A stretch of DNA of 64,000 nt from Alphaproteobacteria bacterium (GTDB taxonomy: Bacteria; Pseudomonadota; Alphaproteobacteria; UBA8366), in the NCBI GenBank assembly GCA_028281325.1, contig JANQKC010000014.1, positions 87,310 to 151,309 on the forward strand, given 5' to 3'. A program made the translations under genes and the position numbers. The notes below the pieces were generated by a model. The model ran no database searches, had not been told where the DNA came from, and was given only the letters and a program-made list of their open reading frames with translations. This document shows, one piece after another, positions 11,209-15,574 of this stretch (its first letter is position 1; every line of letters starts with the position of its first letter).

Positions 11209-11592
<384 letters not shown>

Positions 11593-11705
11593 ATTTTCAA
11601 AATTCGTCTTCAGAGTTCGTCGACAAAGCCGCCTGGAACGTCGAAACCGGAGGAGAACGTCCGGAGTAAAGGCGAGTCGATTATTGCAAGAAACGGTCCT
11701 CAAAA

Positions 11706-11731
11706 GAACATATTTAGAACATTCAAAGAAC
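11706..11731. promoter_or_regulatory. Tandem LexA-like operator (three GAAC half-sites, N7 spacing)
   Basis: GAAC occurs at 11706-11709, 11717-11720 and 11728-11731, with exactly 7 bases between each. All three are part of the identical 7-mer AGAACAT with an 11-base period. LexA of alphaproteobacteria binds the direct repeat GTTC-N7-GTTC, so on the minus strand this is two overlapping LexA boxes. A fourth AGAACAT lies at 11831-11837. Which transcript it governs is not clear; the dcw promoter is about 150 bases downstream. Confidence 0.5.
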
Positions 11732-11893
11732 ATCAACAGGCATTACTCTACAAAAACATTCAGGGAACACTATACCTAGTGGATTCTTTTTTGGCGGCGA
11801 CCATTTGTAGTGACTCAATTTCGACTGATGAGAACATGAAATAATAGTTCTTTTACGGTCAGTTTTACTTTAATCCATTGACCGCCTACAAAA

Positions 11894-11918
11894 TCCCATG
11901 ATATCCCAGATCATCCTA
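11894..11918 (-). promoter_or_regulatory. MraZ box (three TGGGA-type repeats, 10-base period)
   Basis: On the minus strand TGGGA occurs at 11898-11894 and 11908-11904 and the variant TAGGA at 11918-11914, each separated by 5 bases. MraZ is known to bind three TGGGN direct repeats with 5-base spacers in its own promoter, so this is the autoregulatory operator of the dcw operon. A possible -35 TTGACC (11878-11883) would put the -10 inside the repeats, consistent with repression by occlusion. Confidence 0.75.
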
Positions 11919-12023
11919 AAACTGACTTCATTCGGTATTTGAGCCACCGGTGGGCGGTGACGGGATGAAGAGGACGCAGAAGCGTCGCACAGGTAGCAAC
12001 GGTTTCGGGGGATGGCTGCCGCC

Positions 12024-12473
12024 ATGGCACTGTTTGCCGGCACATACACGGACAACAAAGTCGACCGGAAGGGGCGCGTCTCGCTTCCGGCGAAATTGCG
12101 TGCCGAGTTGCCGCCGGAGAACAACCGCGAAATCTTCATCTATCCCTCCCCGACCCTGGAAGGGCTGGAAGCCTGCGACCGCGCCTTCATGGAACAACTG
12201 CGCGACGCGGCCGGGATCGATCCTTATGAAGACGACGACGGGGATATGGGCTCGCTGATCGAAGAAGCGCAGCCGGTGACGATCGACACCGGCGGGCGGA
12301 TCATGATCCCAGCCGATTTCGCGGAATTCACCGATCTCGGTAACGAGCTGGTCTTCGTCGGCCGCGGCCACCGGTTCCTGATCATGTCCACCGCCGTCCA
12401 TACGGAATACCGCAAACGACGGCGCGACCGGATCAAGGCCCGCGCCAAACAACGCGCCGGAGACGGCGCATGA
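12024..12473 (+). CDS. mraZ: Transcriptional regulator MraZ
   Basis: First gene of the dcw operon and a repressor of that operon. The 149-residue protein has two SpoVT/AbrB-like swapped-hairpin halves: DNKVDRKGRVSLPAKLRAEL near residue 10, with the DxKGRxxxP DNA-binding motif, and TIDTGGRIMIPADFAEF near residue 88. An ATG at 12012 is in frame, but homologues begin with MALF followed by the first strand, so 12024 is preferred. The operator is found 106-130 bases upstream. The acidic insert EDDDGDMGS between the halves is typical of alphaproteobacterial MraZ. The stop overlaps the rsmH start as ATGA. Confidence 0.93.
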   Translation: MALFAGTYTDNKVDRKGRVSLPAKLRAELPPENNREIFIYPSPTLEGLEACDRAFMEQLRDAAGIDPYEDDDGDMGSLIEEAQPVTIDTGGRIMIPADFAEFTDLGNELVFVGRGHRFLIMSTAVHTEYRKRRRDRIKARAKQRAGDGA

Positions 12474-13438
12474 ACACGCAAATCCATGCACCCGTAATGC
12501 TTCGGGAAGTCCTTGAGGACCTCGATCCGCAGCCGAACGGCGTCTACGCCGACGGCACCTTCGGACGCGGCGGATACACCCGCGCCCTTCTCGACGCCGT
12601 CAATTGCACGGTCTATGCGATCGACCGGGACCAGGAAGCCGTGGACAGCGCCAAGGCCCTGCTCGCGGCCTACCGCGGCCGCCTCACGGTTCTCCACGGC
12701 CGTTTCGGCGACATGCTGACGCTGCTGCGGGACTGCGGCATTCAGCACGTCAACGGCATCATGCTCGATCTCGGCGTCTCGTCGCCGCAGATCGATCAGC
12801 CGGAGCGCGGATTCAGCTTCCGCGCCGACGGCCCGCTCGACATGCGGATGGGACTCTCCGGCGCCTCGGCGGCGGACATCGTCAATTCCGCGGATGAGGC
12901 GGCGTTGATCGACATTATCCGCAACCTCGGCGAGGAACGGTTCGCGCGGCGGATCGCCAAGGCCATCGTGGCCGCGCGCAGCGACTCCCCGATTACCCGT
13001 ACCAGTACATTGGCGGACATCGTCCGGGGCGCGGTGCCGCGCGCGAAGGACGGCCTGGACCCGGCAACGCGCACCTTTATGGCCCTGCGTCTGTATGTGA
13101 ATGACGAGCTCGGTGAGCTGGACCGCGCCCTCGAGGCGGCGGAGGAACTTCTCATCGCCGGCGGCCGACTGGTGGTCGTGTCCTTCCATTCGCTGGAAGA
13201 CCGGCGCGTAAAACGATTCTTGCAGCAGCGAAGCGACGACAGTGCCGGGGCTTCCCGGCACGTGCCCCTGCCGGAAACTCGGCCTGCACCGAGTTTCCGG
13301 CTTTTTCGCCGCCGCAGCCTGACACCGACCGCGGAAGAAACCCGTCAAAATCCCCGCGCGCGCTCGGCGCGGCTGCGGGCCGCGGAACGCACCGAAAATC
13401 CGCCTTGGCCGACCAATCCGGAAAGGACCGCAGCATGA
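12470..13438 (+). CDS. rsmH: 16S rRNA (cytosine-1402-N4)-methyltransferase RsmH
   Basis: A 322-residue SAM-dependent methyltransferase that modifies C1402 in the decoding centre of 16S rRNA (old name MraW). Motifs in order: HAPVMLREVLEDL at the N-terminus, the SAM-binding loop DGTFGRGGYTRALL (about 29-42), LDLGVSSPQIDQPERGFSF, DGPLDMRM, and a late VVVSFHSLEDRRVKRF. All are diagnostic. The helical insert with EERFARRIAKAI is present. The start overlaps the mraZ stop and the stop overlaps the ftsL start, so translation should be coupled. The C-terminal 60 residues are basic and Arg/Pro-rich, as usual. Confidence 0.96.
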   Translation: MNTQIHAPVMLREVLEDLDPQPNGVYADGTFGRGGYTRALLDAVNCTVYAIDRDQEAVDSAKALLAAYRGRLTVLHGRFGDMLTLLRDCGIQHVNGIMLDLGVSSPQIDQPERGFSFRADGPLDMRMGLSGASAADIVNSADEAALIDIIRNLGEERFARRIAKAIVAARSDSPITRTSTLADIVRGAVPRAKDGLDPATRTFMALRLYVNDELGELDRALEAAEELLIAGGRLVVVSFHSLEDRRVKRFLQQRSDDSAGASRHVPLPETRPAPSFRLFRRRSLTPTAEETRQNPRARSARLRAAERTENPPWPTNPERTAA

Positions 13439-13801: not shown

Positions 13802-15574
13802 ATGATCGGCAAGATAAGACAACAATTGATTCTTGGAACCCGTAATCCTTTCCGTGCGCCCGGGCGGCGACGGCCCTGCGTGCCGTCCAAGAAGCTCATC
13901 GCCGACGGCCCCGTGCGCGAAGCCATCGAAACCGGCCGCACCCGCCTGTTCATTACCGGCGCGGTCTTGATGCTCGCCTTCGGGTGCATCGGATTACGGC
14001 TGGTGGACCTGACCATTTTCCGGTCGGTCGAGGAACCGCGCGTCGGGCGTATTGTCCAATCCGAGCGGATCGAGACCGAGCGCGCCGACATCGTTGACCG
14101 AAACGGTACGATCCTCGCGACCGGCCTGCCGACCGCCTCGCTAGTCGCCGATCCCAAGATGGTGATCGATCCGGACGAAGCGGCGCAACTCGTCGCATCG
14201 GTGCTGCCGGACGCGAACGCGTCCGACATCGCGCGGAGACTACGGATGGATCGCCGGTTCGTCCTGCTGCGGCGGAAACTGACGCCGAACCAGCAATGGA
14301 ACATCCATCGGCTCGGCATTCCCGGGCTGAATTTCCAACGCGAAGAGACCCGCAGCTTCCCGCACGGCCGCCTGTTCTCGCATGTTCTCGGCTTCACCGA
14401 TGTCGACAACCATGGCTTGACCGGCATCGAGAAGAGCTTCGATGGCCGTTTGCGCGACGAACGCGAAGCACTGCGGCTGACTCTGGACGTCCGGCTTCAA
14501 CACATCATGCATACAGCGCTGTCCGACGCGATCGACGAATACGACGCGATCGGCGGCGCCGGCGTCATTCTCGACATCCGCAGCGGCGAAGTGCTGTCGC
14601 TCGTGTCGCTGCCCGATTTCGAGCCGTCCCAGGCGGGCGACGCCAGCGAAGAACAGCGCCGGAACCGCGCGACCCTCGGCGTCTACGAACTCGGATCGGC
14701 ATTCAAGATCTTCACCACCGCCATGGCGCTCGACGCCGGCGTGGTGACGATGGACGATGGCTACGACGCAACCAAGCCGATCAGAATTTCGCGATTCACG
14801 ATCCGCGATTTCCACGCGAAGAAACGCTGGCTGTCCGTTCCCGAAATCTTCATGTATTCGTCCAATATCGGCGCCGCTAAGATGGCGGTCGACGTCGGCG
14901 CGGAAACGCAACGGGATTACCTCGGCAAACTCGGTCTCTTGAAGCCGTCGCCCATCGAACTGCCGGAAGTCGGCAGCCCACTGCTTCCCCGACGGTGGCA
15001 AACGATCAGCACCATGACCGTCTCCTTCGGCCACGGCATCGCCGTCAGCCCTGTACAACTCGCCTCCGCCGTGTCCGCGGTCCTGAACGAGGGCGTCTAC
15101 TATCCCCCGACCCTGATAAAACGGTCGGACGACGCCCCAAAGCCGATGGGACAACGTGTCGTCTCCAAACAAACATCGCACGATTTACGCCGCCTGCTGC
15201 GGCTTGTCGTCGCGGAAGGGACCGGCGGGCGGGCCGCCGTTAAGGGCTTCCTCGTCGGCGGCAAGACCGGCAGCGCCGAGAAGCAAGTCAACGGCCGCTA
15301 CAAGCGCTCCTCGCTCATCTCATCCTTTGTCGGCGCCTTCCCGATGAACGACCCGAAGTATCTCGTGCTCGCCATTCTGGACGAACCCAAAGGCAACAAA
15401 TCCACCCATGGCTTCGCGACGGGCGGCTGGGTTGCCGCGCCGGTCGTGCGTCAGGTGGTGAAACGGATGGGTCCGATCGTGGGGATGGCCCCGGTCGACG
15501 AAACGTCCCCGGAAATACAGGAAACGCTCACCGTCACCTTGCCGAGCGAGGAACCCAAGCTTGCGTCTTTTTAG
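13802..15574 (+). CDS. ftsI: Septal peptidoglycan transpeptidase FtsI (PBP3)
   Basis: A 590-residue class B penicillin-binding protein that cross-links septal peptidoglycan with FtsW. A basic cytoplasmic tail (about 45 residues) and one transmembrane helix (about 51-70) are followed by the PBP dimer domain, beginning RADIVDRNGTILA. The transpeptidase domain has the catalytic SxxK motif as SAFK (in ELGSAFKIFTTAMALDAG), SSN (in YSSNIG) and KTG (in VGGKTGSAEK). It lies 37 bases after ftsL. Its last 14 bases overlap murE, which begins with TTG inside the ftsI reading frame. Confidence 0.96.
   Translation: MIGKIRQQLILGTRNPFRAPGRRRPCVPSKKLIADGPVREAIETGRTRLFITGAVLMLAFGCIGLRLVDLTIFRSVEEPRVGRIVQSERIETERADIVDRNGTILATGLPTASLVADPKMVIDPDEAAQLVASVLPDANASDIARRLRMDRRFVLLRRKLTPNQQWNIHRLGIPGLNFQREETRSFPHGRLFSHVLGFTDVDNHGLTGIEKSFDGRLRDEREALRLTLDVRLQHIMHTALSDAIDEYDAIGGAGVILDIRSGEVLSLVSLPDFEPSQAGDASEEQRRNRATLGVYELGSAFKIFTTAMALDAGVVTMDDGYDATKPIRISRFTIRDFHAKKRWLSVPEIFMYSSNIGAAKMAVDVGAETQRDYLGKLGLLKPSPIELPEVGSPLLPRRWQTISTMTVSFGHGIAVSPVQLASAVSAVLNEGVYYPPTLIKRSDDAPKPMGQRVVSKQTSHDLRRLLRLVVAEGTGGRAAVKGFLVGGKTGSAEKQVNGRYKRSSLISSFVGAFPMNDPKYLVLAILDEPKGNKSTHGFATGGWVAAPVVRQVVKRMGPIVGMAPVDETSPEIQETLTVTLPSEEPKLASF

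Follow-up and report, generated by a model that had tools for sequence, protein, structure and literature searches.

A LexA-like triple repeat upstream of the dcw cluster

The 64,000-nucleotide stretch of an alphaproteobacterial genome analyzed here (the window) contains rnpB followed by mraZ and rsmH, the first two genes of the dcw cluster (Table 1). Between rnpB and mraZ lies a short repeat, GAACATATTTAGAACATTCAAAGAAC (11706-11731, + strand), in which three GAAC half-sites, each inside AGAACAT, recur with a period of 11. The resulting arrangement, GAAC-N7-GAAC-N7-GAAC, amounts to two overlapping GAAC-N7-GAAC boxes. A sequence-only reading of this DNA had described three half-sites with 7-base spacing, each within AGAACAT, and its description is exact. 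For mraZ, comparison with the proteins of relatives, which begin MALF... or similar, suggests that the ATG at 12024 is the likelier start. Downstream of the repeat, TTGAC is invariant at the place of the putative -35 element in the 24 relatives aligned, with TTGAT in one, and in most relatives it immediately precedes CCCA-N6-CCCA repeats of the MraZ type near mraZ. MraZ sites in other bacteria are described as period-10 repeats with a GTG core (available text of PMC7761207); the GAAC triple has a period of 11 and no GTG core.

Table 1. Features in and around the region between rnpB and mraZ (positions in the window)
Feature	Position	Strand	Basis or remark
rnpB (RNase P RNA), upstream neighbor	11210..11595	+	not beside the site in all relatives
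Tandem LexA operator (predicted), three AGAACAT units, period 11	11705..11733 (core 11706-11731)	+	motif counts; kept in relatives
Spacer, LexA box to dcw -35	11736..11877	.	91.5% identical to congener; near-constant length across families; sequence unconserved class-wide
CACTA-N4-TAGTG palindrome	11768..11781	.	as CACAA..TTGTG in most f1, f2 and f4 members
GAGAACA, lone GAAC half-site	11830..11836	+	42-48 bp upstream of -35
TTGACC, putative -35 of housekeeping mraZ/dcw promoter	11878..11883	+	172 bp after LexA-box start
Putative MraZ boxes, CCCATGATATCCCA on + (TGGG-N6-TGGG on -), period 10	11895..11908	-	pattern in most relatives
mraZ, first dcw gene	12012..12473	+	ORF opens at 12012
rsmH (mraW), second dcw gene	12470..13438	+	presumed from position and sequence

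Taken singly, the box is at chance level. GAACN7GAAC was found three times in the window against 3.09 expected, which is not significant, and the whole genome (5.1 Mb) holds 146 matches compared with 117 for the reversed pattern. The full GAAC triple has a single match in the 5.1-Mb genome and its reversed control none, and AGAACAT-N4-AGAACAT-N4-AGAACAT, allowing up to three mismatches, has an expectation of 0 in shuffles of the window. A chance origin therefore fits a single box, but not the triple and its recurrence in relatives. The window's remaining GAACN7GAAC, at 14651, sits inside a 590-aa open reading frame (13802-15574) and looks like chance.

Recurrence of the site upstream of mraZ

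In the congener G001 (MAG OFTM110; L033/L035), the triple is identical except for one spacer base. Positions 11701-11912 share 93.4% identity with that genome, compared to 75.2% for 11596-11700 and 75.8% at third codon positions of mraZ. Absence of the repeat from close relatives had been named as a test of the sequence-only reading; instead, the repeat is near-identical in the congener and present across families.

A search of 98 relatives with the MraZ protein of the window found mraZ in 81, and all 81 upstream regions were read. Between -420 and -220 of mraZ, GAACN7GAAC occurs in 31/81 regions and its reverse orientation, GTTCN7GTTC, in a further 5/81, the 81 including two regions too short to hold the site (L039, 51 bp; L101, 46 bp). 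The full triple is present in 14/81. Controls gave far less: other spacings (3-6 and 8-12) turned up in no more than 4 regions and reversed words in no more than 1, and dinucleotide-shuffled sequences gave a mean of 0.32 (maximum 5 of 200). Because the -420 to -220 range had been chosen on part of these data, 58 further mraZ loci were fetched, one listed place for each family unsampled before, the listed places covering part of the 241 genomes with a match; the mraZ start was taken from the second domain in 3/58, and G141, whose gene lies at a contig end, was left out. In this second sample the same range holds GAACN7GAAC in 16/58 loci and GTTCN7GTTC in 2/58 (57 were long enough, L136 being too short and nevertheless counted), and the same words at spacings of 4-6 and 8-10 were found in none.

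The exact box is absent from that range in 45/81 loci of the first sample and 40/58 of the second, including members of the same family (G002, G004, G006, G008, and G009); these are counts of exact motifs, which miss degenerate boxes. At the family level, in a count that ignores phylogeny, 35/103 genomes carry an exact-match site at mraZ, not far below the frequency at recA in the same class, where a LexA-type box lies within 500 bp in 15/30 loci (taken from the 30 genomes that scored best among 55 with a match). The gene upstream of the site is less constant. Among 20 loci scanned over 500-1500 bp upstream each, rnpB was found in 8 and none was detected in the rest, and in several f2 genomes the nearest upstream open reading frame is divergent and without a confident family. 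The upstream neighbor varies, and therefore the site follows mraZ. RNase P was rejected as the partner of the site, since rnpB was not found beside it in many relatives.

Probable identity of the site as a LexA operator

In alphaproteobacteria, the LexA operator has the form GTTC/GAAC-N7-GTTC/GAAC, represented in Caulobacter by GTTCN7GTTC (PMC12700426 and PMC6237742, as far as their available text goes). The core motif and spacer of the boxes at mraZ are identical to this operator, and the motif is likewise found at the genome's own lexA and recA and, as triples, at lexA in relatives. The single lexA copy (G000:C23) has a box, GAACCAAACTAGAAC, upstream at C23:7425-7439, and recA (L031/L184) carries a box of the same motif, GAACAAAAAAAGAAC. 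In G217, G253, G312, and G323, overlapping GAAC triples precede the lexA match by 24-75 bp; these are four of 54 genomes with a triple, and most other triples have G/C-rich spacers. The four lexA-preceding triples are the best independent evidence for LexA identity. With the box at the genome's own lexA and recA, and with the recurrence and spacing at mraZ, this comparative evidence strongly supports the earlier proposal that the repeat is a LexA target, and we predict with high confidence that the triple is a LexA operator. Presence of lexA and of the mraZ site are weakly associated (site in 34/91 genomes with lexA and 1/12 without; Fisher p 0.055).

Read directly, the four loci (L212, L213, L214, and L215, respectively) have their GAAC triples immediately 5' of lexA. 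L213 has a fourth GAAC after the triple, separated from it by a 6-base gap.

A near-constant distance to the dcw promoter

The LexA box lies at a median of 158 bp (interquartile range 154-161) from the -35 element of the MraZ-box dcw promoter, with 29/39 loci within 150-175 bp; the 39 are those of 47 loci that have both a recognizable TTGA(C/T) and MraZ repeats, and the set excludes the 7 loci in reverse orientation. At the class level, 13/22 box-to--35 distances fall within one 8-bp window, a concentration reached in 0 of 20,000 uniform draws, and for the distance from -35 to start codon an 8-bp window holds at most 6/22. The spacer itself does not align across the class. Conservation of length without conservation of sequence suggests that geometry or a distance constraint matters. 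That the site is coupled to mraZ/dcw we hold to be well supported, and on comparative grounds it very likely represents a LexA operator belonging to the mraZ/dcw promoter module.

Within this module, a further GAAC was found 20-60 bp before the -35 element in 18/29 loci against 4.5 in shuffles, a post hoc count in which 12 of the 18 are order members (the 29 loci have a recognized -35 at 140-190 bp, with near-duplicates L035, L050, and L069 dropped). The GAACA of the corresponding lone half-site in the window is invariant in 14/14 triple-bearing order members, and GAGAACA may, on this post hoc observation, be an accessory LexA contact. In three of the order's families (f1, f2, and f4), GAGAACA and the CACAA..TTGTG palindrome are both recurrent in the spacer that separates the LexA box from the dcw promoter. 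In two loci (L071 and L073), TTATCCACA, which we take to be a match to the DnaA box, occurs within about 40 bp downstream of the LexA box and upstream of mraZ.

A putative SOS-responsive start toward mraZ

As a whole, the best explanation of the locus, to which we assign a probability of roughly 60%, is a LexA operator of the mraZ/dcw module with an SOS start toward mraZ. As long as the DNA is undamaged, LexA would occupy the overlapping boxes as one or two dimers, some 170 bp ahead of the housekeeping dcw promoter. LexA generally undergoes RecA-stimulated self-cleavage, and DNA damage would remove it from the site by this route. Its loss would free an additional SOS-inducible start near the box, reading toward mraZ and giving a longer-leader mraZ-dcw transcript that would raise the level of the repressor MraZ. 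In both E. coli and Mycoplasma genitalium, MraZ is reported to repress the cluster to which it belongs (available text of PMC8475190). Read-through over the MraZ-box promoter, together with the extra MraZ, could then alter dcw expression during DNA repair. We infer LexA binding, the SOS start and its direction, and the sign of the effect on dcw; damage-controlled expression through the site is a plausible proposal, and the upstream-start mechanism itself is put forward tentatively, at somewhat less than even odds. The start was not seen, because simple scanning of 11580-12030 revealed no sigma-70-like promoter and no -10 or -35 element keeps a constant offset from the box in a set of 44 loci (of 47, near-duplicates L035, L050, and L069 having been removed). 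The third half-site is TTGAAC in some f2 genomes, where it might also serve as a -35 element, but no fixed-offset -10 among the 44 loci backs that.

An alternative hypothesis is that LexA acts on the housekeeping dcw promoter from its fixed distance, by looping or by contact with a bound protein, and that there is no second start. A near-fixed spacing (154-165 bp) whose sequence turns over is more readily accounted for by DNA geometry than by a second transcript, and this alternative explains the fixed spacing better than the upstream start does. The spacing of 172 bp in the genome studied here, and of 171 bp in L044, is about one helical turn greater than the 159-162 bp of the order, and the half-site before the -35 element might offer a second, promoter-proximal contact. 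Against these points, the outlying distances show no significant helical phasing (p 0.18 at 10.5 bp), a lone half-site would be an unusual LexA operator, and the best-known mode of LexA repression is overlap with a promoter. We consider action at a distance without a second start somewhat unlikely, while keeping it in close view beside the upstream start. A bolder proposal, which we hold to be unlikely, places the entire dcw cluster under an SOS checkpoint that is ancient and class-wide: LexA, bound at a constant distance of about 15 helical turns from the MraZ-controlled dcw promoter on its upstream side, would act on it through DNA geometry. If so, loss of LexA after damage would retune all septation and wall genes at once, and searches for LexA boxes confined to the vicinity of start codons would have overlooked the arrangement.

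The box might instead control a separate small RNA between rnpB and mraZ, leaving dcw a bystander. UpsM of Rhodobacter sphaeroides is such a leader RNA, with a promoter 268 nt upstream of mraZ (available text of PMC5089854), and conservation of the region in the congener well above that of third codon positions would suit an RNA of this kind. Yet little at the locus resembles one. A simple scan found no terminator between site and mraZ, the predicted fold of that region is unremarkable (z-score -0.11), RNAalifold returned 0 consensus pairs for 14 order members, and the sole Rfam match at E up to 10 is a chance-level hit on the - strand to a mammalian family. The sequence is not conserved across families, and among 139 upstream regions the 24 with a terminator-like hairpin show no pattern with the site. 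Like the R. sphaeroides dcw cluster, the locus has an extended region upstream of mraZ; unlike it, as judged by sequence motifs, it lacks a long structured leader and a Rho-independent terminator and has a nearer, MraZ-box promoter about 100 bp before mraZ. An UpsM-like terminator does occur in L115 (G064), where no LexA box was seen. Because of that arrangement, UpsM resembles a housekeeping leader rather than a LexA transcript. LexA and SOS go unmentioned in the portion of the UpsM report available (PMC5089854), and a survey of mitomycin-induced small RNAs of Caulobacter found no SOS box at them (available text of PMC6237742). A separate small RNA is accordingly quite improbable. The sequence-only reading had offered a hidden small RNA or peptide as an option: nothing favors the former, and the latter is unsupported, as no + strand open reading frame of at least 20 aa starts between 11732 and 11949.

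The MraZ-type repeats of L115 are found at -280; nearer to mraZ is a strong hairpin with a T-rich stretch after it, ending about 43 bp before the gene.

Two further alternatives are weaker. The site could belong to a different regulator, one specific for GAAC direct repeats of 11-base period, with the likeness to a LexA box being coincidental; three half-sites exceed the needs of one LexA dimer and the LexA assignment comes from sequence comparison, but the same overlapping triple directly precedes lexA in four genomes and the same motif lies at the genome's own lexA and recA, making a different regulator very unlikely. That the site serves its upstream neighbor, for example a divergent gene or an rnpB antisense RNA, would accommodate the divergent open reading frames of f2 genomes and the reverse-orientation sites (5/81 and 2/58), but the neighbor differs between loci while the distance to the mraZ -35 element is kept, and we give this almost no credence.

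Relation to known SOS systems

SOS control of division is usually understood as induction of a dedicated inhibitor, such as SulA, YneA, or SidA. The predicted operator at mraZ shares with SidA, the LexA-controlled division inhibitor of Caulobacter, an SOS arm on cell division; SidA is, however, an inhibitor protein (available text of PMC12700426), whereas no + strand peptide of at least 20 aa lies between the site and mraZ. Compared to the typical alphaproteobacterial LexA operator, the target here is mraZ/dcw and the box lies 220-420 bp from the gene, about 158 bp before its promoter. The box search described in the available text of PMC12700426 covered only 200 bp upstream to 75 bp downstream of the starts of predefined SOS genes.

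As an idea, SOS control of mraZ is not new, because a link from LexA to mraZ has been published for Gram-positive gut bacteria: in gut metagenome sequences, a LexA box upstream of mraZ was bound by B. subtilis LexA in electrophoretic mobility shift assays (PMC3998124). That system has the LexA-to-mraZ link in common with ours and differs in its Gram-positive motif and organisms, the available text including no alphaproteobacteria. LexA control of mraZ/dcw in alphaproteobacteria was not reported in the literature searched, a body that excludes older LexA-regulon papers and supplementary tables. Provisionally, then, what is new is the alphaproteobacterial operator at mraZ, its spread, and its fixed remote spacing. 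If a LexA operator is tied to the dcw promoter in many families, damage signaling would also act directly on the cluster of division and wall genes, and the recurrence of the site in many distantly related alphaproteobacteria points to an old, apparently little-noticed link between damage and division.

Other matches to the motif in the genome

When the spacer is required to begin A/T-rich, as in GAACNWWWNNNGAAC, the motif is matched 16 times in the genome, compared with 5 times for the reversed pattern. Among the 16 are boxes close to recA and to genes for a DNA glycosylase, a B12-type ribonucleotide reductase, and a RelE-family toxin. Other matches lie near MFS transporters, hemN, an ADH, a solute-binding protein, or LemA, or within open reading frames. 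The motif alone is no clean predictor, because these adjoin genes without an evident SOS role or sit inside coding sequence. Just 5' of the RelE-family toxin gene (L004, G000:C10:125830), GAACAAAATAAGAAC is reminiscent of the SOS-controlled higBA of Caulobacter. The gene for the B12-type ribonucleotide reductase NrdJ, with GAACAAAAATCGAAC 55 bp 5' of it (L011, G000:C15:284232), is a plausible SOS target. Finally, GAACATAACAAGAAC (L030, G000:C35:119942) lies between open reading frames that have no Pfam, NCBIfam, or PADLOC match and marks a candidate new SOS gene.
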